Below are positions 35,041-56,738 of a stretch of 64,000 nt of DNA, piece by piece. The stretch lies in contig NZ_CP040330.1 in NCBI RefSeq assembly GCF_005576615.1, positions 2,790,001-2,854,000 of the forward strand, written 5' to 3'. The position numbers and the translations under genes were made by a program. This DNA comes from Natrinema versiforme (GTDB lineage: Archaea > Halobacteriota > Halobacteria > Halobacteriales > Natrialbaceae). Below the pieces are notes generated by a model. That model worked only from the letters and a program-made list of their open reading frames with translations. It searched no databases and was not told where the DNA came from. How positions within the stretch are numbered: the stretch's first letter is position 1; every line of letters begins with the position of its first letter.

Positions 35041-35112
35041 GGGCTCGTAGATCAGGGGTAGATCACTCCCTTGGCATGGGAGAGGCCCCGGGTTCAAATC
35101 CCGGCGAGTCCA
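35041..35112 (+). tRNA. tRNA-Ala(GGC), provirus integration target
   Basis: A 72-base cloverleaf with acceptor GGGCTCG paired to CGAGTCC (one G-U pair) and discriminator A. The anticodon loop TTGGCAT gives GGC (reads GCC). The gene is intact, so the element's own 3' end rebuilt the tRNA. Its last 12 bases are attL, with three flanking bases. Confidence 0.97.
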
Positions 35113-35114
35113 CT
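35100..35114 (+). repeat. attL, tRNA-Ala 3' end core
   Basis: The 15-base core CCCGGCGAGTCCACT covers the last 12 bases of tRNA-Ala plus three downstream bases. It recurs exactly at 56724-56738. A partly preserved GTT nine bases before the core is shared with attR, as expected from the T-loop. The integrase gene begins 113 bases to the right. Confidence 0.85.
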
Positions 35115-36440: not shown

Positions 36441-36753
36441 CGCCATCACCGTCCTCGACGATCAGGTCCTCGAGGTCGCTTCGATCGGCGGCGTGTTCCT
36501 CGTCGGCGAGTCCTTCGGTGAACGTCGCGACTTCGTCGCGGAACAGGCGGAAGAACTCGCGCGTGCTTTCCTCCGAGCGGACCTGCGAATGCTGCTTTGT
36601 GATCGAGGCGACCATCGACTCGAAGATCTGGTCTTCGTCCTCGAGCACGTCGATCCCGTCAGAGAGTCGCCGGTAGGCGAGCATCTTCTGGAACCTGCGG
36701 GTGTTGACAACGGCCTCGATCTCCTCGTCGGAGAGTGCCGTGACTTCGATCAC
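36433..36753 (-). CDS. Unknown acidic protein of the integrase operon
   Basis: A 106-residue, very acidic, helix-rich protein that starts with GTG overlapping the preceding gene by four bases and ends inside the zinc-ribbon gene. It has no cysteines or membrane segment and no recognised domain (middle part MLAYRRLSDGIDVLEDEDQI). Its position between a PadR-like regulator and the integrase suggests a role in control of integration or maintenance. Confidence 0.7.
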   Translation of the reverse strand: MIEVTALSDEEIEAVVNTRRFQKMLAYRRLSDGIDVLEDEDQIFESMVASITKQHSQVRSEESTREFFRLFRDEVATFTEGLADEEHAADRSDLEDLIVEDGDGDA

Positions 36754-37331
36754 GCCTCCTCACCTCCGTCGGTCGCGGCGATCTCGATCCCGCAGGCGTC
36801 CGCGCGTCGGTGAACGCTCTCCCCAAGCATCGCCTCGGCGTCGGCCGTCAGCGTGTAGCTGTTCGTCCGACCGTCGAGTTCGTCGCGCTCGAGGAGATCG
36901 TCATCGATCAGTCTATCGAGGTTCTGGTACAGCCGGCTGTGACCGATCTCGCCGTAGTACTCCTGAAGGTCGTCTTTGATCGCGAGCCCGTAGGGGTCCT
37001 TTCCGACTGACTCGAGTCCAGCGATCGCCTCGAGGATGTCCCGCTGGAAGCCGGAGAGGTCGCCCCACGCGATACCGCCGTCGGCGACCAGCTCGGGCTC
37101 GGCTTCGTAGTCCTCAGCGAGTTCGTTCGCTTGCTGCCGACCTTCAGGCGAGCCCGATGCAGGGCCACCGTCAGCTCGGAGGTGCGCACAGGAGCGACAG
37201 ACCGGTTCGTTGCTCCGAGCGTCGTAGCCGTCCGCTCGAGCGCCGCAGGCGCAGCGAGCGTCAGACCTTTTGGCTGGCGATGCCTCTTGCCGTGCGTGGG
37301 GTGTATGCCCCACGGAAGTTCCGAGATTCAT
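36750..37331 (-). CDS. PadR-like winged-helix regulator with N-terminal zinc ribbon
   Basis: A 193-residue regulator at the head of the integrase operon. Cys pairs near residues 27-29 (CACG) and 45-48 (CRSC) form a possible zinc ribbon. The winged helix follows at about 92-165: LSGFQRDILEAIAGLES, then GLAIKDDLQEYYGEIGHS and LYQNLDRLIDDDLLERDELD. This resembles PadR-family repressors. It likely controls its own operon and the facing repressor genes from the 210-base region between them. Confidence 0.82.
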   Translation of the reverse strand: MNLGTSVGHTPHARQEASPAKRSDARCACGARADGYDARSNEPVCRSCAHLRADGGPASGSPEGRQQANELAEDYEAEPELVADGGIAWGDLSGFQRDILEAIAGLESVGKDPYGLAIKDDLQEYYGEIGHSRLYQNLDRLIDDDLLERDELDGRTNSYTLTADAEAMLGESVHRRADACGIEIAATDGGEEA

Positions 37332-37541: not shown

Positions 37542-37853
37542 ATGAGGCAGTCGGGTACTTGGATGACAATCTGGGATGACCGGATTCTCGAAATCATTCG
37601 TAACGAAGGGCCAACACCAGTAGGTAAATTAACGGAACGTGATGGGGTTCGAATTAGTCAGTCATCAGTTTCTCGAAGGTGCCAGAAACTGGCGGATCAC
37701 CGACTCTTGATCCCGATCGGGAACGGCGTCTACGATATCTCCGATATTGGGGAAGCCTATCTCGATGAGGAGTACGACGCCGAAAACGAGACCTACCTCA
37801 ACGGCGGCGACTCGAGTGATGGACCGAGCGCCAGTGGAACCACCCAACCCTAA
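37542..37853 (+). CDS. phiH-repressor-like winged-helix protein
   Basis: A 103-residue DNA-binding protein. It begins MRQSGTWMTIWDDRILEII, close in layout to the repressor of haloarchaeal virus phiH1 (MRQS..WMT.WDDRILE). A winged helix (RISQSSVSRRCQKLADHRLL) follows, then IGNGVYDISDIGEAYLDEEY. The start codon is only three bases after an inverted repeat. It probably maintains lysogeny. It is followed without a gap by a related gene. Confidence 0.85.
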   Translation: MRQSGTWMTIWDDRILEIIRNEGPTPVGKLTERDGVRISQSSVSRRCQKLADHRLLIPIGNGVYDISDIGEAYLDEEYDAENETYLNGGDSSDGPSASGTTQP

Positions 37854-38143
37854 TGAGCCGAAAGCCCGCCTGCTGGATGTGTACGCTTGATGAACGGATT
37901 CTCGAGCATCTCTCGGAGGATTCGTGGTCGACACCACGGCATATGTCTCAAGTTGTCAAACTCACTGCGTCACGTGGGCGGGTCGAAGAGCGATGTCTGA
38001 TGCTTTCTCAGGTCGGACTAGTCGCTCCGATCTTCGAGGATAGCAACATGTACGAAATCACCGGCGAAGGACAGGGGTACCTCGATGGCGAGCTTGATGC
38101 CGAAAATCGGCCAGACCCGTCTCCTAAAATATTGCAAGAATAA
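37853..38143 (+). CDS. Second phiH-repressor-like winged-helix protein
   Basis: A 96-residue paralogue of the preceding gene, starting in the TAATG overlap. It keeps the pattern WMCTLDERILEHLSEDSWS, ALT-type helices (HMSQVVKLTASRGRVEERC) and ITGEGQGYLDGELDAEN. It is more divergent and slightly shorter. Two adjacent copies suggest a duplication followed by specialisation, perhaps a repressor/anti-repressor or heterodimer pair. Confidence 0.78.
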   Translation: MSRKPACWMCTLDERILEHLSEDSWSTPRHMSQVVKLTASRGRVEERCLMLSQVGLVAPIFEDSNMYEITGEGQGYLDGELDAENRPDPSPKILQE

Positions 38144-41992: not shown

Positions 41993-43144
41993 ATGACCAG
42001 TTATGGCGACAAGTACGTCGTCAATGAGACATACCGGAGTTCGATGGATCCAGCGAAAGATGAATTCCAGACATGGCTAAACGGACCAATCGAGACGGGA
42101 ATAAGAAATTCAGGCGGCATCCGCTCGATTAACAATCCGAACACCGGTGAACGCGAGTTCTTAGTCTTCTACTCCGATTCCAGTTCCTCTCAAACTCAAA
42201 ACCCATGGGAGGACGTCATCAACATGTCTGATGGGATTGCTCATTACTGGGGCGACGCTAAAGCAAGGCACCGTCCCGATCCAGACGCACCCACGGGTAA
42301 CGGCTGGGTCAAAATAGACTATACGGAAACCTACGCTCAGGGCAAGCGTGCAGACGCACCACCAGTGTTATTATTCGAACAGCCAGAATCAGGTGAAGTC
42401 ACCTTCCGTGGAGTGTGCGTGATTACTGACCTCCGAATCGAACGTCACAAAGATGAGGGCGAAACAGCCGTCAACTATCTGATTGAGCTTGCGATTCTCG
42501 ATACCGATGCCATTAGTCTGGAATGGATTCATCGAAAGGCGCGAACCGGTGTCGATACCGGCGGGCCTGACGCTTGGAACCAGTGGGTGTCGGATGGACG
42601 AATTCAACGGTACTCCATATACAAAGACAGCATCCGCGCAAAGGAGACTCAATACCCAAACGGACACGAGAAAGAACTGCTCGATGATATCCGAGACCGT
42701 CTCGATGGTCCGAATAAGGGGGTCCAACTCGAGTATCTCCTCAAATTCCTTCTCGAACAACTCCCCACATTCACTAATGTAGAGTTGACTCCCCCAAGCG
42801 GTGACAGAGGCGTAGATCTCACAGGCAGTATCGATCTCCTCGCAGATACCCATCTGAGTGGAACTGCAACAACAGTCGATTTCAAGGCTCAGGCAAAAAA
42901 CACGGCCAGCAGTATTTCTGGGAAAGAACTCAGCAGATTGGCCTCTAGAATCGATGACGGTGAGATTGGATTGTTTTTTACTACATCCCACTTCACTCAC
43001 AGCGCCCAAAAAGAGAATTCGACCACCTATCCGGTTCGGTTGTTCGCAGCTGCTGATTTAGTTGAGATGCTTCTCCAAACCGATCTTGTCGAAAGTCACC
43101 GCCTCAATGACGAGATTGTTAGCGAAATCAAGGAGTCGGCCTGA
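41993..43144 (+). CDS. Probable modification-dependent restriction endonuclease (AspBHI/Mrr-like)
   Basis: A 383-residue protein. The N-terminal half (about 1-210), with the segment HYWGDAKARHRPD, resembles the AspBHI N-terminal domain that recognises methylated cytosine. The C-terminal half is Mrr-like: an Asp in GDRGVDLTGSI (Asp275), then VDFKAQAKN (residues 295-303), the expected acid-Q-x-K nuclease core. If correct, it cuts modified foreign DNA, which would favour the provirus against competing methylated viruses. No methyltransferase is adjacent, which fits a type IV enzyme. AT-rich cargo. Confidence 0.72.
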   Translation: MTSYGDKYVVNETYRSSMDPAKDEFQTWLNGPIETGIRNSGGIRSINNPNTGEREFLVFYSDSSSSQTQNPWEDVINMSDGIAHYWGDAKARHRPDPDAPTGNGWVKIDYTETYAQGKRADAPPVLLFEQPESGEVTFRGVCVITDLRIERHKDEGETAVNYLIELAILDTDAISLEWIHRKARTGVDTGGPDAWNQWVSDGRIQRYSIYKDSIRAKETQYPNGHEKELLDDIRDRLDGPNKGVQLEYLLKFLLEQLPTFTNVELTPPSGDRGVDLTGSIDLLADTHLSGTATTVDFKAQAKNTASSISGKELSRLASRIDDGEIGLFFTTSHFTHSAQKENSTTYPVRLFAAADLVEMLLQTDLVESHRLNDEIVSEIKESA

Positions 43145-44631: not shown

Positions 44632-44826
44632 TCACATGTCTTTAGGGAAATCACTTGAGTCAATTAGTGATATTTTCCATGTTCGATCTTCTGTTCGAGT
44701 CACCCGAACTGGTTGATCTTTCACATTTCCATCCTCATCAACGCAACCGAGTGCCCGAAGTTCACTCTTCGGGAGCACAACACCGCCCGACGTTCTACCA
44801 ACTTGAACCAACTTGTGGATAGGCAT
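44632..44826 (-). CDS. AbrB/SpoVT-like small DNA-binding protein
   Basis: A 64-residue protein beginning MPIHKLVQVGRTSGGVVLPK and continuing VTRTEDRTWKISLID, the swapped-hairpin pattern typical of AbrB-type DNA-binding domains, often antitoxins or transition regulators. It ends the AT-rich cargo block, and 107 bases later the late viral operon begins on the other strand, so it may bind that promoter. Confidence 0.7.
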   Translation of the reverse strand: MPIHKLVQVGRTSGGVVLPKSELRALGCVDEDGNVKDQPVRVTRTEDRTWKISLIDSSDFPKDM

Positions 44827-44933: not shown

Positions 44934-45257
44934 ATGGGTGCAGACAATCCGCCACCGACTGACGAGAAGCCTATCGACGAGGTCTACCACGACCGGAATC
45001 TCCTCGCGATCGCCTTCGCGAGAGCGATCCGGCTCACGTGGGGCCCGAACACCGCGGGCTGGTACTGGCACGACGGGTGGCCAGTCGTCTGGGTCGATAC
45101 ACCGACCGGACAGAAGTCCTGGCACGTCACGCCCGACCTCGAGGATGTCCTCGAGCGCTCGTCACTCCAACAGACCGACCCGGAAAACGGTTACGACGGG
45201 CACTCGCGGACGCTCAAGAACTGCCGGCTCGCCCGCTACATCACCGGGTCCTACTGA
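44934..45257 (+). CDS. First late-module protein, unknown
   Basis: A 107-residue acidic protein at the head of the rightward late operon. It shows GWYWHDGWPVVWVDTPTG, a Trp-rich strand pattern, and no known domain. It shares a TGATG overlap with the following gene at 45257. GC content returns to host-like here, distinguishing the viral core from the AT-rich cargo to the left. Confidence 0.75.
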   Translation: MGADNPPPTDEKPIDEVYHDRNLLAIAFARAIRLTWGPNTAGWYWHDGWPVVWVDTPTGQKSWHVTPDLEDVLERSSLQQTDPENGYDGHSRTLKNCRLARYITGSY

Positions 45258-46016: not shown

Positions 46017-46676
46017 ATGACAGGCTATTTCTGCCCCGTCGAGGGGTGCGACAAACACGACGATGAATGGAACGACGAGCAACCTCCTTTTGCCTCGAAG
46101 GAGGCGGTCAGGAGCCACATCAATGCGATGAGCGGCGACGACCACCAGCGAGCAAGGGACGAAGGGGCCTGGGAAGGGGCCCCGACTAGCAGCGAAGGCG
46201 CAGACAGCGAGGGGGTCGAGAGCAGTGACGAGCAGCAACCCGAAGGGACCGAGAGCAGCAACGACCGGCCAGACGAGCAGGCAGAAAGCAGCGACGAAGG
46301 GGGCCAAAGCAGCCCCTCGAGCAGCGACACCCCTGACGAGAGCAACGACGACCAGGGAGACGAGCAAGTGAAACCCGCAGACAGCACCGACCCGTGGGAC
46401 CCAGACGAGCAGGCAGATGACCAGCAAAAAGGGGCCGCTCAAGGGGCCCCAAGCAGTGGCTCTACCCCCTCGAGCAGCGCCTCGATCGGTGGGCCGAGTC
46501 TACGGACCACTGCCGTCCTGATCGGGGCGGCCGTCGCCGTGGCACTCCTGATCCTCTTGTGGCGCCGTCGCCGGTCGAACACGATCGACGCCGACTCGGC
46601 CGAGCCGACGCCCGACGAGGACGACTCGAGCGGCAACGGCATCGACCGCGAGGCCGGGGGTGGTCTCGTTGACTGA
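46017..46676 (+). CDS. Low-complexity acidic membrane protein with C2H2-like start
   Basis: A 219-residue protein. The start YFCPVEGCDKHDDEW has a Cys-Cys-His pattern and a later His (RSHINAM), a zinc-finger-like motif. Residues about 55-150 are a run of Ser/Asp/Glu/Gly/Pro repeats including QAESSDEGG and SSSDTPDESNDDQ, and the coding strand is markedly purine-rich. A single transmembrane helix (LIGAAVAVALLILLW) at about 173-187 precedes a basic stop-transfer sequence. Likely virion membrane protein. Confidence 0.7.
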   Translation: MTGYFCPVEGCDKHDDEWNDEQPPFASKEAVRSHINAMSGDDHQRARDEGAWEGAPTSSEGADSEGVESSDEQQPEGTESSNDRPDEQAESSDEGGQSSPSSSDTPDESNDDQGDEQVKPADSTDPWDPDEQADDQQKGAAQGAPSSGSTPSSSASIGGPSLRTTAVLIGAAVAVALLILLWRRRRSNTIDADSAEPTPDEDDSSGNGIDREAGGGLVD

Positions 46677-47187
46677 CGACCGAGACGGAGATCGCGAGGA
46701 CGATCCCGAGCCCGAGGAGTCCCTCGAGGAAGACGCGTACGCAGATATCGATCCGGAAATCGCCGAACAGGTCGCGGAAGCCGACGCCGAGGACCCCGAC
46801 GAGGAGGTAGACGTCGACGACCCGGCAGAGGAGCAGGACGACACCGACGACAGTACCAGTACCGGCGACCGGAAGACGGTCGGCCACGTCTACTGCCGGG
46901 CCCTCGGTGCCGGAGCGGCGATCAGCCAGGATCGAATGGGCTCGGGCGTTGACGACCGATCGGCGGTGATCGACGAGTACGCCGACCTCGCGAAGGAACT
47001 CGACCTCGACGAGTACATGGACCAGTGGTACCGGGAGAACCTGAGCGGCAGCTCGGAACTTGGACCCGGTCAGGGGCTCGTCGCGATGACCTCGCTGTTC
47101 GCCGTGATGGTCCTCGTCGAGGACACGGAGATGCTCGACGGGGCGATCGACTCCATGAGCGGAGCCACCGCGGAGGTAGAGGCATGA
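46660..47187 (+). CDS. Late-module acidic protein with C-terminal helix
   Basis: A 175-residue acidic protein. It starts with GTG at 46660 inside the preceding gene (17-base overlap); a TTG at 46669 is possible. About residues 1-66 are Asp/Glu-rich, and a hydrophobic segment (GLVAMTSLFAVMVLVED) lies at about 143-159. The gene after it begins in an ATGA overlap. Function unknown, but the tight coupling puts it with the packaging/assembly genes. Confidence 0.68.
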   Translation: MVSLTDDRDGDREDDPEPEESLEEDAYADIDPEIAEQVAEADAEDPDEEVDVDDPAEEQDDTDDSTSTGDRKTVGHVYCRALGAGAAISQDRMGSGVDDRSAVIDEYADLAKELDLDEYMDQWYRENLSGSSELGPGQGLVAMTSLFAVMVLVEDTEMLDGAIDSMSGATAEVEA

Positions 47188-47771
47188 ACCTCCGCGAGAT
47201 CGCGACCGGCGGCGACCCCCGGAAGGCCCTCGCGACGAAGTTCTTCCAGAGTAAGCAGGCCGAAGCCTTCCTCTCGATCGTCGCTCACCGCGAGCGTCGG
47301 ATCATGGAAGCCGTCGCCGATCTCCAGCAGGCCGTCGACGATGACGACATTGAACCCCTCAAGGGACTCCCGTCCGTCGACGACCGCGTCGAGCAAATCC
47401 GCTCGATGGCACTCGCGATGATCGATGATTCGCTCCCCGCCTGGTACGTCGAGGAAGCGATCGACATCGACAACGCCGAGGAAGCCGCCCAGTACGCCGA
47501 CCTCACGGACGAGGAATGGCAGACGACCAAAGAGACGTGGGCTGACCGCTACCGCGAGCAAGGTGTCGAGGGCGGCGTCGACGAACTCGCCACGGCTCAC
47601 GTCCGGACCCGATTCGATGTCGACGACCTCGAGACGTTCCGTGAGGCCGTCGTCGAGTGGCCGAATGAGCGACAGCAAGCCGTCCTCGAGGAGGCACTCG
47701 CTGGCGGCCTCGAGATGGCCGAGCAGGGGATCCGCGACGTAACCGACGCCGTCGACTCGGAGGACAGATGA
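47184..47771 (+). CDS. Late-module protein directly upstream of the packaging ATPase
   Basis: A 195-residue acidic helix-rich protein (MNLREIATGGDPRKALATKF then FLSIVAHRERRIMEAVADLQ). It has no cysteine or membrane helix. It begins in an ATGA overlap with the preceding gene and ends in an ATGA overlap with the ATPase. Genes in this place in SH1-type viruses are mostly uncharacterised; an assembly or packaging accessory role is an inference from position. Confidence 0.68.
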   Translation: MNLREIATGGDPRKALATKFFQSKQAEAFLSIVAHRERRIMEAVADLQQAVDDDDIEPLKGLPSVDDRVEQIRSMALAMIDDSLPAWYVEEAIDIDNAEEAAQYADLTDEEWQTTKETWADRYREQGVEGGVDELATAHVRTRFDVDDLETFREAVVEWPNERQQAVLEEALAGGLEMAEQGIRDVTDAVDSEDR

Positions 47772-48553
47772 ACCTCGCGTTCGGTGCCCGAACGAACTGG
47801 GGCAAATCGTACGGCTTACAGGCGTACACCGAGCGGAACGCGCCGGAGTACGACCGGACAGTCCTTGTCGACTACAAGGACGAGTACACCGGCCTGGTCG
47901 AGTCGGGACTCCTGCAGCGACTCCCGCTCCGAGTGGGAACTGACGATCTCTCGCGGGCTGAGTGGCAACGGATCTTCGAGGACAACAGCAGCCTCCAACT
48001 CGCCCGCGATGGCATGACCGATGACGCCTGGCGCGAGGCGATCGCGACCGCCATCGCCGCGCTTGCCCAGCTCGAGGAACGCACGTTCTTGGGGCTGGAC
48101 GAGGCCCACCGCCTCGCTCCCCAACGGGACGGCTACCCCGACGAGTTCGATACGCTCGCGACGACCTGGCACGGCGATGGGATGGGCGTTGCGTGGGTCA
48201 CCCAGCGCTTCGCGAAGCTCGATGAAGACATCGCTTCGCAGTGTCAGGCGTCAATGCTCGGCGGGTTCGGCTCAGGGAACGACCTCGACAAGGTCCGCGG
48301 AATCGTCGAGTATCCGGCTGATGTCCACAAGGCCGACGCCGAAACGTGTCCGCGAACGCTCCCCGGTGAACTGCTCGTTGACGGCGAACCGCTCACACTC
48401 CGGCGATTCAGCGATGATGCGGGCAACACGATCGGCTCCGAGTGGATTTACTCGGATGACACCACCCTCAGACGTATCGATTCACGCGAATGGACGCTCA
48501 AGAGTACGCACTACGGCAGCGATCGAGTCCGGATCAAACACCCCTTCGACTAA
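47768..48553 (+). CDS. Genome-packaging ATPase (A32/P9-type, HerA-FtsK superfamily)
   Basis: A 261-residue ATPase. Walker A is GARTNWGKS (Gly6 to Ser14) at the extreme N-terminus. Walker B is TFLGLDEAHRL at about 106-116, and a glutamine-containing sensor stretch follows (VAWVTQRFAKLDED). The small size and N-terminal Walker A match packaging ATPases of internal-membrane viruses (PRD1 P9, SH1-like). Strong context: RHH gene after it, capsid genes to the right. Confidence 0.88.
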   Translation: MNLAFGARTNWGKSYGLQAYTERNAPEYDRTVLVDYKDEYTGLVESGLLQRLPLRVGTDDLSRAEWQRIFEDNSSLQLARDGMTDDAWREAIATAIAALAQLEERTFLGLDEAHRLAPQRDGYPDEFDTLATTWHGDGMGVAWVTQRFAKLDEDIASQCQASMLGGFGSGNDLDKVRGIVEYPADVHKADAETCPRTLPGELLVDGEPLTLRRFSDDAGNTIGSEWIYSDDTTLRRIDSREWTLKSTHYGSDRVRIKHPFD

Positions 48554-48559
48554 CACACG

Positions 48560-48742
48560 ATGCGCATTGATGTTTCACTCCGCGGGAGCAAAGCCGATCA
48601 GTTCGAACGGATTAAAGAGCATCTCGAAGAGCGTCGCGGTCACGACCTTTCGCGAACCGAAGTGGCCGGAATCCTGATGGCCGAGTTCGAACAGAGCCTC
48701 GAGGACAACCGTGATAGTTCTATCAAACCACTTAGTGGATAG
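48560..48742 (+). CDS. Small RHH-like DNA-binding protein
   Basis: A 60-residue protein: MRIDVSLRGSKADQFERIKE then ERRGHDLSRTEVAGILMAEF, a ribbon-helix-helix pattern. It lies six bases after the ATPase gene and could repress late genes or package with the DNA. It ends just before an AT-rich inserted gene on the other strand. Confidence 0.72.
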   Translation: MRIDVSLRGSKADQFERIKEHLEERRGHDLSRTEVAGILMAEFEQSLEDNRDSSIKPLSG

Positions 48743-48791
48743 CGAACCTAATACTCACGCACATAATTGTGAATTATAAGCTCGTGAGCAA

Positions 48792-49355
48792 TTATAATAC
48801 CGGAATTAAGGACGATACAAATTCAGATTGTACAAATGTTGATAAAACTATAAGAAAGAAGCCAATGCCACGCCACCGCTGGATTGGATCCTCCTCTAAC
48901 CTATTAGCCTCTTCATTTATCCAGATGTCAATAACCTGTATTGGGCCAACTTTTTCTGATTCTCCTTCAGTGATTGGATTCTTCAACTCTTCGGCCTTCA
49001 GCGCCTCTACTCCTGCTGAATCAATCGCATATACTATTGATCCTCTATCAGCCAGATCTTCTCCTCCCTCAAGACTAAAATTGATTTCAGAAGTATGAAA
49101 ACCTTGACAACTAGTGTCATTATTTTGCAATAGTTCTCTACCCAACTCTTTCTCTATAATTTTGTAAATTAGTTCGAAAGAGGGATCTTCCACGGTTAGT
49201 TGGCCTTGTCTAGATAATTTCACCCTTCCAGATTTCAGTACTTCAATTTTTTCTTGGTTGACAAAGCACGGTTTGAGTGATGGAAAGGTGGGTAGTATAA
49301 CAAGACCGGACCCTACTATTCCTAATACCAGACCAACCACGGGAATCCAATTCAT
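48792..49355 (-). CDS. AT-rich inserted membrane protein (moron)
   Basis: A 187-residue protein, strongly AT-rich and opposite to the late genes it sits between. Hydrophobic helices are visible at residues 3-23 and 165-183, with a soluble core (VKLSRQGQLTVEDPSFELI). No family was recognised. Its orientation, composition and place in the late block mark it as a separately acquired gene, perhaps expressed in the lysogen (superinfection exclusion or host defence). Confidence 0.62.
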   Translation of the reverse strand: MNWIPVVGLVLGIVGSGLVILPTFPSLKPCFVNQEKIEVLKSGRVKLSRQGQLTVEDPSFELIYKIIEKELGRELLQNNDTSCQGFHTSEINFSLEGGEDLADRGSIVYAIDSAGVEALKAEELKNPITEGESEKVGPIQVIDIWINEEANRLEEDPIQRWRGIGFFLIVLSTFVQSEFVSSLIPVL

Positions 49356-49519
49356 TATGTGATATTAGTATCTCACAATTGTAGATGTTGGGATTTATCA
49401 GACTTTCTTCCTAAAGAATAGAAGTCCAATAGAGAAAGCAAGATCGGTATCGATTGTGACTGAAACGGCGAGACGCCGCAGAACGACGCAGGACGACACT
49501 ACACGCGTCTGCTGACTGA

Positions 49520-49541
49520 GTATTTAACGCGCTCTTATATC
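49520..49541 (+). promoter_or_regulatory. Probable promoter of the capsid-gene block
   Basis: Two TATA-like motifs, TATTTAA at 49521-49527 and CTTATAT at 49534-49540, lie 42-48 and 29-35 bases before the ATG of the first capsid-block gene, in an otherwise GC-rich area. The second has the spacing expected of a short-leader archaeal promoter. It would drive the late block separately from the ATPase cluster, cut off by the inserted AT-rich gene. Confidence 0.5.
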
Positions 49542-49568
49542 CGAATTCAGCCGGTTGATCAGAACCGC

Positions 49569-49844
49569 ATGGCGATGAATTTCGATCAGGCCACGCAGGC
49601 CCTGACTGACAGCGACGTGTGGATGGATGTCGGCATGGTCGCGGGCGGCTACCTTGCCCCGTACCTCGTCGACACGGCAACCGGCACGATGCTCCCGTCC
49701 GAAATCTTCGGCATCGGCGGGATGGCCCTCGGCGAGATGGTCGTTAGCAACCGAGCGTTCACCCTCGGCTCGGGCGCGTTTGTCGTTCGCGAGGCGGCCG
49801 AGCGCTTCAACGCCCAGGGAATGATCAACGAGGTGCTGGCGTAG
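49569..49844 (+). CDS. Small membrane-associated virion protein (VP12-like position)
   Basis: A 91-residue protein with a hydrophobic segment (VAGGYLAPYLVDTATGTML, then IFGIGGMALGEMVV) at about 23-60. It starts MAMNFDQATQALTDS and ends one base before the next ATG. In SH1 a small membrane protein precedes the small capsid protein; this gene occupies the same place. The assignment rests on position and size. Confidence 0.7.
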   Translation: MAMNFDQATQALTDSDVWMDVGMVAGGYLAPYLVDTATGTMLPSEIFGIGGMALGEMVVSNRAFTLGSGAFVVREAAERFNAQGMINEVLA

Positions 49845-50336
49845 ATGAGCCTCTCGCTGTACGCTGCGCTCGGTGATACCTCGAAATACATCTCGACGGA
49901 GACGAACATCACCGATCAGCTAACGCCGGTCCTCACAATCAGTCCCAAAGACGGTATCGGAGTACTCATCCGGAACGCCGTCAGTGTCGGTGACAAATCC
50001 GGTCTCCCGATTTACGGCAAGTTCAACGACTCGAACGGAAATCCGCTTCCGGCGAACACTCGAGTCGCGCTCGGCTACAAGGCTCCGACCGACGAGAGCA
50101 TCCAGGTCGTCTCGGATCCCAAGGCCACGATCGCGAGCTACATCAAGAACAGTGTCTCCGATCAGCAGGACGATCGGAAGGTCGACGCCGTCAAGCACCA
50201 GCTCAAGGGCGAGAAGCTCGAGGTGCGGGACATCGACGAAGCGTACATCCTCGTCGATTCCTCCGAGCAGATCGACCACGCCCAGAGCGAGATCTACTTC
50301 GAGGAAGCCGCGCTCGCGGAGGTGGACCTCGAGTAA
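49845..50336 (+). CDS. Probable small major capsid protein (VP7-like)
   Basis: A 163-residue protein with a beta-rich pattern (SPKDGIGVLIRNAVSVGDKS; NPLPANTRVALGYKA) consistent with a single jelly-roll. The 163-residue/245-residue pair directly after a small membrane protein and close to a packaging ATPase matches the small and large capsid proteins of SH1/SNJ1-type viruses in order and size. Eye-level evidence only; the fold has not been modelled. It overlaps the next gene by one base (TAATG). Confidence 0.65.
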   Translation: MSLSLYAALGDTSKYISTETNITDQLTPVLTISPKDGIGVLIRNAVSVGDKSGLPIYGKFNDSNGNPLPANTRVALGYKAPTDESIQVVSDPKATIASYIKNSVSDQQDDRKVDAVKHQLKGEKLEVRDIDEAYILVDSSEQIDHAQSEIYFEEAALAEVDLE

Positions 50337-51073
50337 TGACGATCAAGAACAAACTAAAGGCGGCCGACTGGGTCCCCGGAAGTATCACCCTCCGCGAGTT
50401 CGACACCCAGCCGGGCACGCCCGGCGAAGCGAGCGTCGTCGCCGAGATCAAACTCGGTCGGCCGCTTCAGCTTCGCGACGATCCCGACAGCGAGCTGCGA
50501 CTCGTTCTCCCGGCACACGAACACTTCACGACCAACGGGACCGCCGACGAGCAGGAGACGTTCGAACTCGGTCATAATCTGATCGAGAGCCCGTCGACGC
50601 AGGATTTCCTGCTATGGGAGGACGGGAACGTCGTGCAGCCCGACAGCGTTGACTACGACGACAACTCCTTCGACTACACCTCGAGCGGGACGGAGACGGA
50701 CCTCGACGTCTTCTACGTGCCTCGGAATCCGGCGTCGGTCGAGATTCGGAAGACCGCACCGGGAGCAGGCGGTAAGGTCAATCAGACGCTCAAGGAGGCA
50801 CAGACGGCGATCCTGCACACTCGCGATCAGGCTCAGCAGGAGATCCAGTTCGGCTTCGACCGAACTCCGCTGCAGCCGTACCTCCCGCGGAAGTTCAAGC
50901 TACAGGTCGTCGTTGACGCTCCGTATACGGTCGCGTTCGAGGCTCCCGAGCGAGCCAACGGGACGCCTCGAGCCCGTAATGCCCTGCTGTCGCTGCCGCG
51001 GTTCCAGACCGAGGCCCGAATCGAGGGCCTGGGCGCGGCGGTCAAGCAGGACATGATCGGAGTCCGGGGGTGA
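50336..51073 (+). CDS. Probable large major capsid protein (VP4-like)
   Basis: A 245-residue, beta-rich protein; the segment SVVAEIKLGRPLQLRDDP and the aromatic DNSFDYTSSGTETDLDVFYV are typical of strand-rich capsid proteins. SH1 VP4 is of similar size and also follows VP7. A single jelly-roll with insertions is expected. A helix-like region near residues 144-170 (LKEAQTAILHTRDQAQQEIQ) could line the inner face. Starts in the TAATG junction with VP7-like gene. Confidence 0.65.
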   Translation: MTIKNKLKAADWVPGSITLREFDTQPGTPGEASVVAEIKLGRPLQLRDDPDSELRLVLPAHEHFTTNGTADEQETFELGHNLIESPSTQDFLLWEDGNVVQPDSVDYDDNSFDYTSSGTETDLDVFYVPRNPASVEIRKTAPGAGGKVNQTLKEAQTAILHTRDQAQQEIQFGFDRTPLQPYLPRKFKLQVVVDAPYTVAFEAPERANGTPRARNALLSLPRFQTEARIEGLGAAVKQDMIGVRG

Positions 51074-51124
51074 TCCCCCGTGCAGGGCGGCTTATCCGAC
51101 GGTACCGAACCCGGAGAGTTAGCG

Positions 51125-51310
51125 ATGACGACGGCTACGTCGGCGTCGACTGCGACCTCGAGTCCGGAGAACCAGAACCAACCCCAGCAGCCCCCGGAGA
51201 GCCCGACAGCGCGGCTTGTCTACGGCACGCAGTGGACGCAGGACGACATCATGATCGGCCTGCTGGCGCTGCAGGCGGTGCTGCTGGTCTTCGTCACAAT
51301 TCGATCATGA
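51125..51310 (+). CDS. Small single-helix virion protein (VP13-like position)
   Basis: A 61-residue protein with a Gln/Pro/Ser-rich N-terminal half and a C-terminal membrane helix (IMIGLLALQAVLLVFVTI). The ATG at 51125, eight bases after GGAGAG, is the better start than an in-frame GTG at 51080. It is followed in an ATGA overlap by a 25-residue ORF. In SH1 a similar small membrane protein follows VP4. Confidence 0.65.
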   Translation: MTTATSASTATSSPENQNQPQQPPESPTARLVYGTQWTQDDIMIGLLALQAVLLVFVTIRS

Positions 51311-51384
51311 ACGGACACACGCAGGGGCTCGTTGGCGTGACCGTCGCGGGCCCTCCTGATGGAATCGGCACGGAGGTGAGCTGA
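51307..51384 (+). CDS. Possible 25-residue coupled microprotein
   Basis: A frame of 25 codons starting inside the previous stop (ATGA) and ending three bases before the next gene. It reads MNGHTQGLVGVTVAGPPDG. Translational coupling on both sides supports expression; the length is the only reason for doubt. No domain is recognised. Confidence 0.4.
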   Translation: MNGHTQGLVGVTVAGPPDGIGTEVS

Positions 51385-51387
51385 CCG

Positions 51388-52167
51388 ATGGCGGGACCTG
51401 CTGCAGCGATGGCCGCTGGCGAGGCGGCCGACAAGGCTGGAGATGTCGCGGAGCCTGCTGCAGAGGCCGCGAGCGATATCTCGGACAGCATGAGTGAAGC
51501 CGCCCAGAATAGCCGCGGCTTCAACATCGCGATGGTGATCGGCGCGATCGTCATCGGCTACATGATGTACCGGGTCCTGCAGATGATGAGTGCCCCCGGT
51601 CAGACCGTCGACGGAATCGGCGACTCGCTTGGCAACATCGTCGACGGGACGACCAACGCAGCCGGTGGGGCTGGCGATGCAGCCGGTGGAATCGGCGGCG
51701 CGATCGGCGATATCTGGGGTGGTTCAACCGACGCAGCCGGCGGTCTCGGTGGTGCGATTGGTGATATCTGGAGTGGCTCAACAGACGCAGCCGGCGGGAT
51801 TGGCAATGCTGTCGGCGATGTGTGGAGTGGATCGACCGGTGCACTCGGCGATATCTGGGGAGGGTCGACCGATGTCGCGGACGGTGCCAGCGATGCGGTC
51901 GGCGACGCGATCGACGCTGGCGGTGACCTCTTCGGTGGTATCGTCGATACCGGTGGCGACGCAGCCGACGGTGCGGCCGACACTGGTGGTGATCTACTCG
52001 ATGGCTTCCTGAGCGCTGGCGGGAATGCGGCCGACGAGGCCACCGACACTGGTGGTGACGTGGTCGATGGCGCAACGGATGCCGGAGGAGATGTCATCGA
52101 CGGCGCAGCCGACGCTGGCGGCGATCTCGTCGACGGGGCAACCGACTTCGCTGGAGGGCTGATCTAA
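51388..52167 (+). CDS. Repeat-rich membrane/coiled virion protein (VP2-like position)
   Basis: A 259-residue Gly/Ala/Asp-rich protein. After a helical N-terminus and a membrane segment (FNIAMVIGAIVIGYMMYRVL, about 46-65), two repeat systems follow: about three 18-residue units such as GGLGGAIGDIWSGSTDAA, then seven 11-residue units of the type DTGGDVVDGAT. No other protein domain is visible. The 11-residue spacing suits a right-handed coiled or amphipathic rod, so it may form a membrane-anchored fibre or tape. Confidence 0.75.
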   Translation: MAGPAAAMAAGEAADKAGDVAEPAAEAASDISDSMSEAAQNSRGFNIAMVIGAIVIGYMMYRVLQMMSAPGQTVDGIGDSLGNIVDGTTNAAGGAGDAAGGIGGAIGDIWGGSTDAAGGLGGAIGDIWSGSTDAAGGIGNAVGDVWSGSTGALGDIWGGSTDVADGASDAVGDAIDAGGDLFGGIVDTGGDAADGAADTGGDLLDGFLSAGGNAADEATDTGGDVVDGATDAGGDVIDGAADAGGDLVDGATDFAGGLI

Positions 52168-52168
52168 G

Positions 52169-52384
52169 ATGGAGCCCGTCGCCCTGCTCAACAACTTCGG
52201 CTTCCCTGCCGTTGCGTTCGGACTCATGTGGCGTCTCTACCGCGAGGAACGTAACGAGCGCCGGGAAGAGCGTAGCAAGTGGCTCGAGGCAATCCAAGAG
52301 CACACGGCCGCCGTGCGCGATCTCCGGCGCGATGTCAAGACTGTCGCGACCGACGGCGGCGAGCAGGAGGGGGATGCACCGTGA
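52169..52384 (+). CDS. Small membrane and coiled-coil protein
   Basis: A 71-residue protein: a short hydrophobic helix (LLNNFGFPAVAFGLMW, about 6-21) followed by a charged coiled coil (ERNERREERSKWLEAIQEH). This is the layout of small membrane proteins and of holin-associated factors. It overlaps the next gene in GTGA. Confidence 0.65.
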   Translation: MEPVALLNNFGFPAVAFGLMWRLYREERNERREERSKWLEAIQEHTAAVRDLRRDVKTVATDGGEQEGDAP

Positions 52385-52857
52385 TCGGCTCGTCGACTGT
52401 CGGCCCGAACAGCCCCATCGAGCGCGTCCTCGAGGACTACGGCGTCGGAGTCTCGTCGTGGGGCGAGGACCTCGTCGAGAGCGACACCGAGCGGCTACTG
52501 CTCGCGTTGCTCCTCGAACACCGCGGCGAGAACGCGGTCGAGGCGCTCAACCCCGAAGCGGAGGACAGCCAGGAGGCCGCGTATTTCGTGACAGAAGATC
52601 CGCTTCCGGTAACGACGGCCGAAGAGAATCGTCTCAAATGGGGATTCCCGGCGACCTCGGTCACCGTCTGGGGATTCGACGAGCCGATCTATGTCGCATT
52701 CCGGTCGGAAGGCGACTATCGAAAGATCCCTCTCGAGCCCTCAGACGCTCCGTATCATGCGGGTCCGGAAGGTGGGCTCGGAGCGTCAGCCGCGTGGATT
52801 CGGAAACAGAGTAGCGAGACAGCAGACACGACTGTGAAGGTTAAAGCGTACAAGTGA
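52381..52857 (+). CDS. Late-module protein, probably spike base or connector, unknown
   Basis: A 158-residue protein starting with GTG in a GTGA overlap. It begins MIGSSTVGPNSPIERVLEDY and has beta-rich features in the C-terminal half (ATSVTVWGFDEPIYVAFRSE). No family was recognised. It ends in a GTGA overlap with the following spike-type gene, suggesting the two products are made together. Confidence 0.65.
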   Translation: MIGSSTVGPNSPIERVLEDYGVGVSSWGEDLVESDTERLLLALLLEHRGENAVEALNPEAEDSQEAAYFVTEDPLPVTTAEENRLKWGFPATSVTVWGFDEPIYVAFRSEGDYRKIPLEPSDAPYHAGPEGGLGASAAWIRKQSSETADTTVKVKAYK

Positions 52858-53855
52858 AAATGACGACAATCGAAGAAACGACGGGGAAACTCCCCGACCT
52901 CATCGACGGTATCGCATCGGCCGCGACCGCTCTCAGCGAGTGGTCCGACGCAGATCCCGCCGTCACGAACGACGGCAGTTCGACCAACTACGTCGACAAC
53001 GGGCGCGTTCTACAGCACTCCTCGAGCGGGCTGTACGTCGGGCTGTTCCTCCAGAACTCGAGGTATGCTCGCCACGAAGACGACTACAACAACGCCAACG
53101 CGGGCGGTATCCGAGTTGTTCACTCATCGGACTGGGACACCGAGAATAACGTTCCCGCCGGCAACACCGACGTTCGGAGCGCTGACCCATGGAGCGGCGA
53201 TGTCGGAAACAACGCGTCAGCCTCGTTCACGACGTATAACACCGACACTGGCGAATACAATTGGACCCACGGGAACGCGAACGGCTCGACCCAAGTCTAC
53301 GTCCTCGAGACGGGCGACGGTATCGGAACCCTCCAAGAGACGGACGTGACCTACTTCGGGTCCGTGACGAACAACTGGATCAACTTCGGTGCGTGGAACA
53401 CGAAAGACGGCCAAAACGGGCGTTGCGGGTACTACACGGCTGAGTACATCCAAGACAAGTTCTGGGCCGACGGCAACCAGCCGTTCGCGGCCTACGCCCA
53501 GTCGAGCACCAGCAGAGGAAGCGAAACGGCCCTCGCGAGCTTTCAGGTCTACTACGGTCGGGCCAACAACAACACCAGCTACCCGTACAGTGCGGCCGGA
53601 TTCGATCGACCCGAGTGGTGTGTCGTCAATCCCGATTCGGCGGATGACACCTACTTCTTCCGCCGAGGAGTCATGTACCAGACCTCGAGCCAGAGCATCC
53701 CCGTCGCCTACATCAAGGCGATCATCGGGAACGACATCAACGAGGGCGGTGCCCACGGCGACACGATCGACCACAGCGGTGAAACCTACCGCGCGCTTCG
53801 CCAGTCCGGAGCAGGCACCGACAAGACGATCTCGGCTGCACTGCGGTACGAGTAA
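52854..53855 (+). CDS. Probable spike or receptor-binding protein
   Basis: A 333-residue protein. After a helical start (LPDLIDGIASAATALSEW) it is rich in Asn, Gly, Tyr, Ser and Thr with little Lys, for example DWDTENNVPAGNTDV and YGRANNNTSYPYSAAG. This is typical of exposed, sugar- or envelope-binding spike domains. In SH1 the spike proteins VP3 and VP6 are the last two genes of the late block, and here too it is followed by one more, separate protein. The start GTG overlaps the previous stop; an ATG at 52860 is two codons later. Confidence 0.6.
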   Translation: MKMTTIEETTGKLPDLIDGIASAATALSEWSDADPAVTNDGSSTNYVDNGRVLQHSSSGLYVGLFLQNSRYARHEDDYNNANAGGIRVVHSSDWDTENNVPAGNTDVRSADPWSGDVGNNASASFTTYNTDTGEYNWTHGNANGSTQVYVLETGDGIGTLQETDVTYFGSVTNNWINFGAWNTKDGQNGRCGYYTAEYIQDKFWADGNQPFAAYAQSSTSRGSETALASFQVYYGRANNNTSYPYSAAGFDRPEWCVVNPDSADDTYFFRRGVMYQTSSQSIPVAYIKAIIGNDINEGGAHGDTIDHSGETYRALRQSGAGTDKTISAALRYE

Positions 53856-53858
53856 GCG

Positions 53859-54512
53859 ATGGCCTCCTACGCAACCACCAGCAAACAGAGCGATTCCGAC
53901 GGCTTCGGCACCAAGGACGTGACGGACCGCTCGAGCGGATCGACCGTCGCTGGTGGCGTCACCCTTTCGAGTCGGTCGCTCGTCGATCGTGGCGGCGTCA
54001 CGGTCGAAGGGGCAGCCGCGACGACCGACCACAACCTCGAGCATCGACTGGGTCAGTTCGTAACTCCGGTACAGGATGTCGAAGGCGTCCAACCGGAAGG
54101 CGTCGCGGCAGCGTCGAAGTCCTCGAGCACCACGTTCGACGGCGTCGCCGGCGGAATCGAGTCTCCAACAGCCGCGTACATCCCGAGCGCGTACTTCCGA
54201 CGGGTTCAGGGCGTTGCGATCAACCCGAAGGGCGAACGGATCACCAACGGGAAATGGGTCATCGCGCAGGACGGTCTGCCGACCGCCGGGAAGGTCGACG
54301 ACAACGGCGAGTTCCAGATAAACCTGCTCCGCAACGAGTACGAGAACTTCGCCCTGCTCGTCGAAGCAGAGGACTACAGCGGGCTCGACTACGTCTGGTA
54401 TCAGTACCGGCGGACGGTCATCGATTCGACGCGGGCCGAAGTCGTCCTCGTCTTCGAGGAATCACAGGTGACGAACGGTCTTGCCAGCGATGTGGGAGTA
54501 CATCTCGGATGA
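53859..54512 (+). CDS. Last late-module protein, probable spike partner (VP6-like position)
   Basis: A 217-residue protein with Ser/Thr-rich N-terminal repeats of the type SSGSTVAGGVTLSSRSL and a C-terminal half that looks like a carboxypeptidase-regulatory-like or beta-sandwich domain (RITNGKWVIAQDGLPTAGKV, then DDNGEFQINLLRNEYENF). This suggests a fibre or sandwich protein exposed on the virion. It starts three bases after the previous stop. It is the last gene of the high-GC viral core. Confidence 0.62.
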   Translation: MASYATTSKQSDSDGFGTKDVTDRSSGSTVAGGVTLSSRSLVDRGGVTVEGAAATTDHNLEHRLGQFVTPVQDVEGVQPEGVAAASKSSSTTFDGVAGGIESPTAAYIPSAYFRRVQGVAINPKGERITNGKWVIAQDGLPTAGKVDDNGEFQINLLRNEYENFALLVEAEDYSGLDYVWYQYRRTVIDSTRAEVVLVFEESQVTNGLASDVGVHLG

Positions 54513-54601: not shown

Positions 54602-55501
54602 GTGCCCATTCAAGAAAGCGAACGCCACTGGTGGGGTGGTATAGAACAGAACGAACGTGCTTGGAGATATCTGTCTTTTCCAGCATTTACGAAGCTTTTG
54701 AGAACGGAGGAATTATTCTTTAGAAAAGTCTCAAAATTTCCCGATCCGTACGAGGGATCCATCCCGCATTCGTTGACTGAAATTAGGAAAAAAGATGCGA
54801 GGATGGCTAATATCCCTCCGGAACGCTTCGAGAAAGTTTATTCTGAAATAAATGACCATGCCCGAAAATGCTCGTACGCTAATTGTTGGCACCTGAATAG
54901 TAATGAGTCAGAGGCTATGTGGCAGAAGTATGGTGATAAGGGGATCGCAATAATATCTAGCGTTGATAATTTTATCCCTTCTTTTAAAAACCAAGATAAG
55001 TTGCTGTTCGCAAGACCTGTGAGATATATTGATTATTTCAAATCATTTGAAACGCTGTCTGGTGAAGAGCGCACCGAGCTTAAGGGAATTGGAAGCGAAA
55101 TACTTGACGAATTTGCTGCTATTAATTTTGTTAAAAGAGGTAGCTTCAAGTATGAGAGAGAATTCCGGATATTACAGCCGGATCTATCCTATTTTCCTAT
55201 AAAAGAGTACGAAGACCGAGAGTACAACATTCGTATTGACGGAGAAAAAGAGAAATATCCTGCCTTCACTCAGAAATCTGGTGTGCCTGTTTGTGTTGAT
55301 TTCACAAAAACACCAGAAGGCTGGAAAAGAGAACTTGAAGTCAATCTATCTACGTTAATAGATGAAATAAGAGTCGCACCTGGAGCAGGAGAGTGGTTCT
55401 ACAAAACTGTATGTGAGGTGGTTGACGAAGTTGGTTCATCAGGGATATCTTCTGATTTAGTTCAACCATCTGTGGCCGATGTTCATGATCCTAAAAGATA
55501 G
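54602..55501 (+). CDS. DUF2971 family protein (possible abortive-infection cargo)
   Basis: A 299-residue protein, strongly AT-rich. Family marks are AWRYLSFPAFTKLLRTEELF with FPDPYEGS, then CSYANCWHLNSNESEAMW and QKYGDKGIAIISS, corresponding to the DUF2971 consensus. DUF2971 proteins are linked to abortive infection in some bacteria, but their activity is unknown. The start is a GTG at 54602, shortly after an AT-rich stretch at 54570-54600. The gene sits between spike genes and the right regulators, a typical site for lysogenic cargo. Confidence 0.75.
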   Translation: MPIQESERHWWGGIEQNERAWRYLSFPAFTKLLRTEELFFRKVSKFPDPYEGSIPHSLTEIRKKDARMANIPPERFEKVYSEINDHARKCSYANCWHLNSNESEAMWQKYGDKGIAIISSVDNFIPSFKNQDKLLFARPVRYIDYFKSFETLSGEERTELKGIGSEILDEFAAINFVKRGSFKYEREFRILQPDLSYFPIKEYEDREYNIRIDGEKEKYPAFTQKSGVPVCVDFTKTPEGWKRELEVNLSTLIDEIRVAPGAGEWFYKTVCEVVDEVGSSGISSDLVQPSVADVHDPKR

Positions 55502-55533: not shown

Positions 55534-55995
55534 TTATACGATTATCTTTTCCTCAGATTCAACAATATCTTTACCGTCGGTGTACCGCATCGGCGGGACG
55601 ATCACCCAGACGTGCTGATTCCCTGCCCACACCGAGACGTAGCCTTCGCTCTCGAGGGGCTTGATGATCTCGTCGAGGACGGCACTCTTCGGCGTGCTGT
55701 TGTCGTAGAGCTTGTTCTTCGCGGTCTCGAGTTTCACACGTCGTTTGCTCTTGTGGCGGGCAGACGCTCGCTCGTGGAGCATCCGGTACGCCTCGGCGAG
55801 TCGCTCATCGTCGGGCAGCACCGGTTGGGGCGCGTTGAGATCGCCCTTCGCTTCGACTTCTTTCTGGACTAGCTCGCGAAGCTTTTCACTCCGATTCTTA
55901 TCCTCGCGGTCGGCGATCTCGTCGAGCGTCTCGAGCAGTTCGTCAGGACAGCCGAACGAGACGCGGCTCGAGGGGTCGTGATCCATCCGCCCCAT
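55534..55995 (-). CDS. RHH DNA-binding protein with C-terminal winged-helix-like domain
   Basis: A 153-residue regulator. The N-terminus SSRVSFGCPDELLETLDEIA then NRSEKLRELVQKEV is a ribbon-helix-helix pattern. The C-terminal half (LDEIIKPLESEGYVSVWAG then VWVIVPP) resembles a winged helix. The ATG at 55995 is preceded by GGGGTGA; a second ATG at 55986 would shorten it by three residues. It is the last gene of the leftward right-end operon. Confidence 0.75.
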   Translation of the reverse strand: MGRMDHDPSSRVSFGCPDELLETLDEIADREDKNRSEKLRELVQKEVEAKGDLNAPQPVLPDDERLAEAYRMLHERASARHKSKRRVKLETAKNKLYDNSTPKSAVLDEIIKPLESEGYVSVWAGNQHVWVIVPPMRYTDGKDIVESEEKIIV

Positions 55996-56120
55996 CAGTG
56001 GCTCACCCCGATTTGCATATCCCGTGAATACGGGGGCGGCGTCGGGTTGTGCAGTTCGTATGCAAGGGGGGAGGGGATGCCTACGGAGGCGGCTATCGCG
56101 CGGGTGTGCGTGCGCGTCAT
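55995..56120 (-). CDS. Coupled 41-residue ORF between SWIM and RHH genes
   Basis: A 41-codon frame linked on both sides: its ATG overlaps the stop of the SWIM gene (ATGA), and its stop overlaps the ATG of the RHH gene (TGATG). It reads MTRTHTRAIAASVGIPSPLA and ends in a basic HNPTPPPYSRDMQ segment. The close coupling supports translation. No family was recognised. Confidence 0.5.
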   Translation of the reverse strand: MTRTHTRAIAASVGIPSPLAYELHNPTPPPYSRDMQIGVSH

Positions 56121-56548
56121 GGCCGCACCTCTGCCTCCCGCTCGTGGCGTCGTGTCTTCTCGATCGCCCCATCATGTGGCTCGCCCTCGAGCGCCTCGTT
56201 GGTCGCGTGGCGCATCTCGTGTTCGTCGTCGGGAGTGCCGTCGGTCAACTTCACGTCTATCAGTTCGAGGAAGGCAGCCTTCCGGAGCGTGCAGAGATGG
56301 GCGCACGGGCCGTCGTGGTACTCCCACCCCTTGCAGTCGCATCGACCGATGTACTCGCCGTCCTCGAGGCCGAGCGCACAGTAGTGGACGCTCTCGCCGT
56401 CTCTGAGCGTGACCTTGTAGCCGAACCGACCGAACGACTCGATCAGTGCCTCGCGTGGATCCGCTCGAGCCCACGACTCGGTGTCTGCGTCCCGTTCCTC
56501 GAGGAAGTCGATGTCCTCACCGTCGGTCGGCTCTGGGAAGGCGCTCAT
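56117..56548 (-). CDS. SWIM zinc-finger protein
   Basis: A 143-residue protein with the SWIM pattern C-x-C-x9-C-x-H seen in CDCKGWEYHDGPCAHL near residue 70. An acidic N-terminus and a helix follow. SWIM domains bind DNA or proteins and are common in haloarchaeal proviruses and plasmids. It lies between two coupled microproteins, and its start overlaps the upstream stop (ATGA). Confidence 0.85.
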   Translation of the reverse strand: MSAFPEPTDGEDIDFLEERDADTESWARADPREALIESFGRFGYKVTLRDGESVHYCALGLEDGEYIGRCDCKGWEYHDGPCAHLCTLRKAAFLELIDVKLTDGTPDDEHEMRHATNEALEGEPHDGAIEKTRRHEREAEVRP

Positions 56549-56723: not shown

Positions 56724-56738
56724 CCCGGCGAGTCCACT
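56724..56738 (+). repeat. attR, tRNA-Ala 3' end core
   Basis: CCCGGCGAGTCCACT here is identical to bases 35100-35114. A shared GTT nine bases before it belongs to the tRNA T-loop. To the right the base composition and gene content are host-like again. Together with the integrase beside the other copy this defines the element's ends. Confidence 0.85.

Follow-up and report, generated by a model that had tools for sequence, protein, structure and literature searches.

Does the chromosome of the haloarchaeon Natrinema versiforme hold a temperate form of an internal-membrane virus, and if so, to which family does it belong and how is it inherited? The question is raised by a 64,000-nucleotide stretch of contig NZ_CP040330.1 (positions 2,790,001 to 2,854,000; the window, to which coordinates refer unless another record is named), in which an initial annotation had recognised a sphaerolipovirus-like virion module at 47768-54512 inside an integrated element. 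We propose that window 35100-56738, a unit of 21.6 kb between its attachment (att) sites in a contig of 3.75 Mb, represents a temperate provirus of SNJ1/Yingchengvirus type (Simuloviridae) in integrated form. Judged from sequence comparisons, this explanation as a whole, including the mode of inheritance outlined below, appears very likely.

The virion module and its family

A tblastn search with all open reading frames (ORFs) of the window revealed a virion block at 44934-54512 whose gene order and strand are the same as in SNJ1, Haloterrigena jeotgali icosahedral virus 1 (HJIV-1) and Natrinema versiforme icosahedral virus 1 (NVIV-1) throughout; 17 ORFs have homologues in HJIV-1 and 14 in NVIV-1. 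Homology begins at 44934, which extends the annotated block by about 2.8 kb to the left. The genes named within 47768-54512 were all found at the coordinates given for them, and the order from ATPase to spike is indeed collinear with simuloviruses; however, a 60-amino-acid (aa) ORF (48560-48742) after the ATPase had been omitted, and a minus-strand cargo gene (48792-49355) sits ahead of the small membrane protein. Similarity far exceeds chance (E values of 1e-152 for the ATPase, 4e-139 for the large and 4e-89 for the small capsid protein). Identity of the packaging ATPase amounts to 91% with NVIV-1 and HJIV-1, 35% with SNJ1 and 25-26% with HHIV-2, PH1 and HCIV-1. The large capsid protein shares 84-86% identity with its counterparts in NVIV-1 and HJIV-1 and 38% with SNJ1 PB2, the small one 82-83% with its counterparts in HJIV-1 and NVIV-1 and 39% with SNJ1 PB7. 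A PHROGs search was concordant, with a packaging enzyme and head-type genes in the block.

A sequence-profile search of the PDB gave no match for the large capsid protein, and a comparison of folds was therefore needed. AlphaFold2 models built from the window and database relatives (pLDDT 80 for the large, 79 for the small capsid protein) had significant fold matches in the SH1/P23-77 capsid lineage only. With Foldseek, the large capsid model matched P23-77 VP17 (E 7.7e-10) and also HHIV-2, SH1 and HCIV-1; its VIA Z score was 17.4 (root-mean-square deviation 3.1, 204 aligned) against P23-77 VP17 and 15.8 (3.0, 197) against SH1. The small capsid model matched P23-77 VP16 (E 2.7e-7), SH1 and HCIV-1, with Z scores of 14.9 (1.8, 126) against P23-77 VP16 and 13.2 (2.4, 137) against SH1. 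The models agree with the jelly-roll folds that had been expected for 49845-50336 and 50336-51073, the predicted folds being of the SH1/HHIV-2/HCIV-1/P23-77 capsid type. Neither tailed-virus nor pleolipovirus structural genes, which had been named as grounds for abandoning that view, were found in the virion block.

The label 'spike' for the proteins at 52854-53855 and 53859-54512 was assigned by position, and searches by sequence against solved structures returned no meaningful matches for these two proteins or for the ATPase. Among related genomes the capsid genes retain about 80-94% identity, whereas the spike-position genes are divergent: both share only about 30-40% identity with their counterparts in most relatives, but 87% and 80% with those of the metagenomic contig L085. 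This pattern of sequence identity suggests that they are exchanged as a cassette.

On gene content and identity, the virus family is Simuloviridae and not Sphaerolipoviridae in the strict sense. The element combines two predicted jelly-roll capsid proteins of the SH1/P23-77 type with a collinear virion module and an ATPase of the clade; according to the International Committee on Taxonomy of Viruses (ICTV), members of the Simuloviridae have 17-21 ORFs in common (PMC12642351). SNJ1 (AY048850), the type virus of the family, resembles it in gene order and capsid families but differs by only 35-40% identity of capsid proteins and ATPase, by its RepA rolling-circle plasmid provirus and by its ORF4 regulator. 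RepA, an extrachromosomal provirus and an ORF4-type lysis-lysogeny regulator are features of the family that the element lacks; NVIV-1, an accepted member, is also devoid of RepA (PMC12642351). The element measures 21.6 kb from att to att; the Simuloviridae have circular double-stranded DNA of 16-19 kb and a 70-nm tailless virion with an internal membrane. HJIV-1 (BK013338) shares the 17 homologous ORFs, both spike-position genes and a large capsid protein with 86% identity but has RepA, is a free circle and carries no integrase. The Sphaerolipoviridae SH1, HHIV-2, PH1 and HCIV-1 and the proviruses HalaCibP1, HalaPauP1 and HaloLacP1 have capsid folds and an ATPase class as in the element. However, SH1-type viruses have linear genomes of about 30 kb with terminal proteins, their ATPases show the low identity given above, their capsid proteins had no match by tblastn to those of the window, and the element ends in tRNA-derived att repeats, not in terminal repeats. 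The term 'sphaerolipovirus-like' was thus apt for an internal-membrane halovirus virion module but points to the wrong family for its close kin, which are SNJ1-type Simuloviridae.

Integration site and lysogeny genes

The 3'-terminal bases of tRNA-Ala(GGC), CCCGGCGAGTCCACT, are repeated once downstream, at 56724-56738, and insertion at this 3' end leaves the tRNA intact. With these att repeats and an adjoining integrase gene, the virion module does lie inside an integrated element. The 335-aa integrase is 49.9% identical to the SNJ2 integrase over 100% of the length and about 44-48% identical to other pleolipovirus integrases; it has the traits looked for in the SNJ2 family, namely full-length similarity, SAM-like and catalytic domains and an att site at a tRNA 3' end. 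The integrase operon also encodes a PadR-type 193-aa protein with 56% identity to SNJ2 gp3, a recombination accessory protein. The betapleolipovirus SNJ2 (OP012469) resembles the element in integrase (50%), accessory protein and a regulator (about 34%), in its att site at a tRNA 3' end and in an open frame across attP. In contrast, its virion is a pleomorphic vesicle, it has no structural gene in common with the element, and pleolipoviruses belong to another realm than simuloviruses. Pleolipovirus matches in the element were limited to SNJ2 gp1, gp3 and gp4; no SNJ2 structural or replication gene was found, and neither pleolipovirus spike nor NTPase genes are present. Since SNJ2-type lysogeny genes are joined to simulovirus virion genes, the element is, by its gene content, a chimera of both modules.

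Alternatively, two elements could lie side by side: a simulovirus block inserted on its own and, beside it, an integrated plasmid or pleolipovirus of SNJ2 type. An SNJ2-like left end, an SNJ1-like right part and the degraded recombinase fragment at 39811-40050 would be in agreement with such an arrangement, and ViPREHmuk1 is a mixed locus of this kind (PMC3622292). However, ten genomes have these left and right parts together, flanked by the same att cores, by which this possibility is largely refuted, and pleolipovirus structural genes are missing; we consider it very improbable. The att core, from tRNA position 60 and at least 13 nt long, bounds proviruses in nine genomes other than that of the window (G002, G004, G006, G012, G082, G083, G109, G116 and G059), and the architecture at tRNA-Ala(GGC) is the same in all ten. 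ViPREHmuk1, although also located at tRNA-Ala with an integrase (PMC3622292), is a 39-kb locus of pleolipovirus and plasmid genes and not a compact unit of 20-26 kb such as the chimeric provirus proposed here.

The second tyrosine-recombinase protein, Int2 (40831-41418), was rejected as the integration enzyme, because the 335-aa integrase adjoins attL and is the SNJ2 homologue. Int2 homologues occur across integrated relatives and in the element of Haloarcula marina DT1, and the degraded recombinase copy mentioned above lies about 1 kb from the Int2 gene. The features of the element are compiled in Table 1.

Table 1. Features of the integrated element in window coordinates; percentages are identities.
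Feature	Position	Strand	Remarks
tRNA-Ala (GGC), intact, integration target	35041..35113	+	ARAGORN
attL core CCCGGCGAGTCCACT, 3' end of tRNA-Ala	35100..35114	+	exact 15-nt direct repeat
Tyrosine integrase, SNJ2 family, 335 aa	35227..36234	-	adjoins attL; Pfam Phage_int_SAM_1 + Phage_integrase
Integrase operon: zinc-ribbon-like ORF, 106-aa ORF, PadR-type 193-aa protein	36231..37331	-	
Two small winged-helix regulators	37542..38143	+	weak similarity to SNJ2 gp4 (29-34%)
Int2, second tyrosine-recombinase protein, catalytic domain only, 195 aa	40831..41418	-	Pfam E=8.4e-18; kept in relatives
Cargo: AspBHI/Mrr-type modification-dependent restriction endonuclease	41993..43144	+	Pfam 3.8e-44; PADLOC mREase_II
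Putative regulator, 64 aa, divergent from virion operon	44632..44826	-	conserved in integrated relatives
107-aa ORF, first of virion operon	44934..45257	+	SNJ1 gp17 homologue, 73%
VP2-type structural protein, 251 aa	45257..46012	+	51-56% to SNJ1/NVIV-1
VP3-type structural protein	46017..46676	+	tblastn vs simuloviruses
VP4-type structural protein	46660..47187	+	tblastn vs simuloviruses
VP5-type structural protein	47187..47771	+	81% to NVIV-1
Packaging ATPase, 261 aa	47768..48553	+	Walker A GARTNWGKS; 91% to NVIV-1/HJIV-1
60-aa ORF	48560..48742	+	73-75% to NVIV-1/HJIV-1 counterparts
Inserted cargo gene, 187 aa, hydrophobic segments	48792..49355	-	not found in relatives examined
Small membrane protein	49569..49844	+	NVIV-1 ORF04 homologue, 78-89%; SNJ1 VP6 position
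Small major capsid protein, 163 aa	49845..50336	+	identity to HJIV-1/NVIV-1; predicted fold as P23-77 VP16/SH1 VP7
Large major capsid protein, 245 aa	50336..51073	+	identity to NVIV-1/HJIV-1; predicted fold as P23-77 VP17, SH1, HCIV-1, HHIV-2
Small membrane protein	51080..51310	+	73-81% to NVIV-1/HJIV-1
Gly/Ala/Asp repeat protein, 259 aa, internal repeats	51388..52167	+	58-62% to NVIV-1/HJIV-1
SNJ1 VP7 homologue, 71 aa	52169..52384	+	72-85%
Head-type protein	52279..52857	+	84% to HJIV-1; PHROGs; true start probably 52381, at the start of the HJIV-1 counterpart
Spike-position protein 1, 333 aa	52854..53855	+	33% to HJIV-1 ORF28; fast-diverging, 33-38% to most relatives
Spike-position protein 2, 217 aa	53859..54512	+	SNJ1 VP1 homologue, 29%; PHROG head protein 1.7e-13
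Cargo: DUF2971 protein, candidate-defence family PDC-S31	54602..55501	+	probably lysogenic defence
Ribbon-helix-helix (RHH) protein, right end	55534..56175	-	kept in integrated relatives; not found in phage records
SWIM zinc-finger protein	56117..56548	-	distant homologues (34-35%) in SNJ1, NVIV-1, HJIV-1
attR core CCCGGCGAGTCCACT, right boundary	56724..56738	+	exact direct repeat of attL core

Mobility, maintenance and alternative fates

Tandem copies in two other genomes are, at the level of sequence, a sign of recent mobility of this element class. In G059 three att cores flank and separate two 22.3-kb copies in tandem that are 99.97% identical, and H. marina DT1 holds two tandem chromosomal copies at tRNA-Pro together with an 18,001-bp circular record (unnamed2, NZ_CP100406) that is 99.85-100% identical to them and carries both recombinase homologues. 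The DT1 element is related to that of the window by simulovirus-type capsid genes and the two recombinases (40% and 44%) but differs in a capsid protein of only 33% identity, in the tRNA used and in its circular record.

We assume that, upon induction, integrase and accessory protein recombine attL with attR to give a circular genome. To judge from the gene layout, circularisation would bring the SWIM and RHH genes, which are on the minus strand, immediately downstream of the integrase operon on that strand. Early or replication functions may then be switched on only after excision, by analogy to SNJ2, for which this has been shown by experiment: its replication operon arises only once excision joins the integrase operon to the right-end genes (PMC13107129). 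In the lysogen the 64-aa putative regulator presumably keeps the divergent virion operon silent, and inheritance would rely on integration in place of RepA-driven plasmid maintenance. The restriction endonuclease and the DUF2971/PDC-S31 protein are probably cargo for lysogenic defence. Excision would also create an attP-spanning frame, which is open over 59 codons in 10 of 10 junctions, including a natural one between tandem copies.

Several observations weigh against this explanation. No replication initiator was recognised in the element: SNJ1/HJIV-1 RepA and NVIV-1 ORF19 had no match in it or in any integrated relative examined, and SNJ2 Rep (gp19) was not found in it either. No excised form of the window element was seen. 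The DT1 plasmid record has a 157-bp direct duplication at its circular junction (L140 / NZ_CP100406, ~8340-8650), so this circle might have arisen from the tandem array during assembly; the duplication suggests an untrimmed assembly overlap. By BLASTP, the 64-aa putative regulator has no detectable similarity to SNJ1 ORF4; its candidature as an ORF4 orthologue was dropped, as no meaningful similarity to SNJ1 ORF4 or ORF5 was obtained. Substitutions in the attP-spanning frame are free of codon-position bias (11/15/11 variable columns), and a coding role for the frame, as a conserved protein comparable to SNJ2 ORF26, is therefore unproven; the likeness to that ORF is one of placement only.

Some of these points would also be expected of a defective remnant, that is, an old integration kept for its defence cargo while the virion genes have fallen out of use. 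Decayed versions are present at the same tRNA-Ala in G009, G010, G011 and G015, a cargo gene lies within the virion block, and a replication gene was not recognised. On the other hand, the window has every virion ORF, the two recombinases and the two att sites in intact form, and capsid genes conserved to about 80-94% while spike-position genes diverge are the pattern of genes in use. We regard a remnant as unlikely. A clean empty tRNA-Ala site was sought in relatives, but those examined hold remnants or are rearranged. The restriction gene (41993-43144) and the gene at 48792-49355 were present in no relative examined.

The same genome also contains NVIV-1 (Yingchengvirus NVIV1, BK013337), whose recorded host is N. 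versiforme BOL5-4: contig C5, 18,925 bp, is 100% identical to BK013337 after rotation. The window thus most probably stems from this strain. One genome thus holds an episomal and an integrated member of one virus group. NVIV-1 has a virion block collinear with that of the element (ATPase 91%, capsid proteins 83-84% identical), but it is an 18.9-kb circle without integrase, has ORF19 and a SNJ1-ORF4-type regulator and lacks any match to the two spike-position proteins of the window. The element might depend on NVIV-1 for replication or packaging, or the reverse. Besides co-residence, the close identity of ATPase and capsid protein (84%) and the lack of RepA and ORF19 in the element would fit such helper dependence, as would the known interactions of SNJ2 with co-resident viruses (work cited in PMC13107129). 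However, the element encodes a full set of virion and packaging proteins of its own, and the capsid-gene search, which did not amount to a genome-by-genome check, showed no NVIV-1-type neighbour beside most other integrated copies; helper dependence is thus rather improbable, even more so than a remnant. For the autonomous provirus we propose that it can co-reside with NVIV-1 in one cell because its regulator is unlike the NVIV-1/SNJ1 ORF4 regulator.

Further arrangements were noted among the relatives. In G061 (L120-L121), G109 (L124-L125) and G128 (L126) the entire virion block is turned around with respect to the integrase in comparison with the window and G059; the second recombinase or ordinary rearrangement may be responsible. 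G384 (contig C1, L146-L151) has several simulovirus-type units in tandem at tRNA-Val; the start of this contig repeats its end including flanks, so that the copy number is uncertain. Simulovirus-type genes lie near tRNA-Ala(CGC) in G013 (C4) and G014 (C44); the G013 locus also has a divergent integrase (47%) and repeats 15 nt of that tRNA. N. versiforme JCM 10478 (G094; contigs C5, C27 and C59) has three different large capsid genes, one of them 94% identical to that of the window. The metagenomic sequence L087 (IMG/VR 3300021446) combines an NVIV-1-type backbone (ORF19 79%) with simulovirus capsid genes; it is an episome-type relative without integrase in its sequenced part.

Consequences for the Simuloviridae

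Integration of SNJ1-related elements as such is not new. The integrated SNJ1-related elements IHP and HaloMukP1/P2 (PMC4284463), ViPREHmuk1, which has an integrase and lies at tRNA-Ala (PMC3622292), proviruses of SH1 type flanked by integrase and tRNA (PMC5332951) and sequence related to HCIV-1 in N. versiforme, Natrialba asiatica and Na. aegyptia (PMC4958249) have all been published, and ViPREHmuk1/HaloMukP1-P2 and IHP resemble the element in that SNJ1-related genes are integrated (PMC3622292, PMC4284463). New is a coherent, widespread, RepA-less clade with an SNJ2-type integrase, against the ICTV description of 2023, in which three episomal viruses make up the simuloviruses and their proviruses are extrachromosomal episomes (PMC12642351). 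A description of this compact clade was not found in the open-access literature searched; subscription papers, outside the search, may hold one. The expectation that an integrated form would broaden the known lifestyle therefore stands for the Simuloviridae as described, but not for SNJ1- and SH1-related proviruses in general.

Of 125 genomes from the host's family, 22 have homologues of the large capsid gene, as do 61 of 391 sampled genomes of the class; where the surroundings of these genes were inspected, they mostly proved to be an integrated element with an integrase. In the tree of the large capsid protein, SNJ1 groups with integrated elements of G059, G061, G109 and G128 (98/99 support) and HJIV-1 with that of G005 (98/95). 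Since episomal and integrated forms are interleaved in this tree, lifestyle appears to have been exchanged as a module. The RepA proteins of SNJ1 and HJIV-1 are 82% identical, while their large capsid proteins are 38% and 86% identical, respectively, to that of the window, so capsid and maintenance modules differ in history.

These elements may represent a separate lineage of active temperate viruses that couples SNJ2-type integration and excision and an excision-gated replication switch to a simulovirus capsid, with capsid modules passing from episomal to integrated backbones and back, and this capsid type may persist in haloarchaea mainly in integrated rather than plasmid form; we give this combination of claims about even chances. 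As ICTV still describes episomes only, a well-defined integrated clade extends the described lifestyle of the family. N. versiforme BOL5-4 is one cell line with both forms, in which superinfection immunity, module exchange and excision-gated replication are directly testable.

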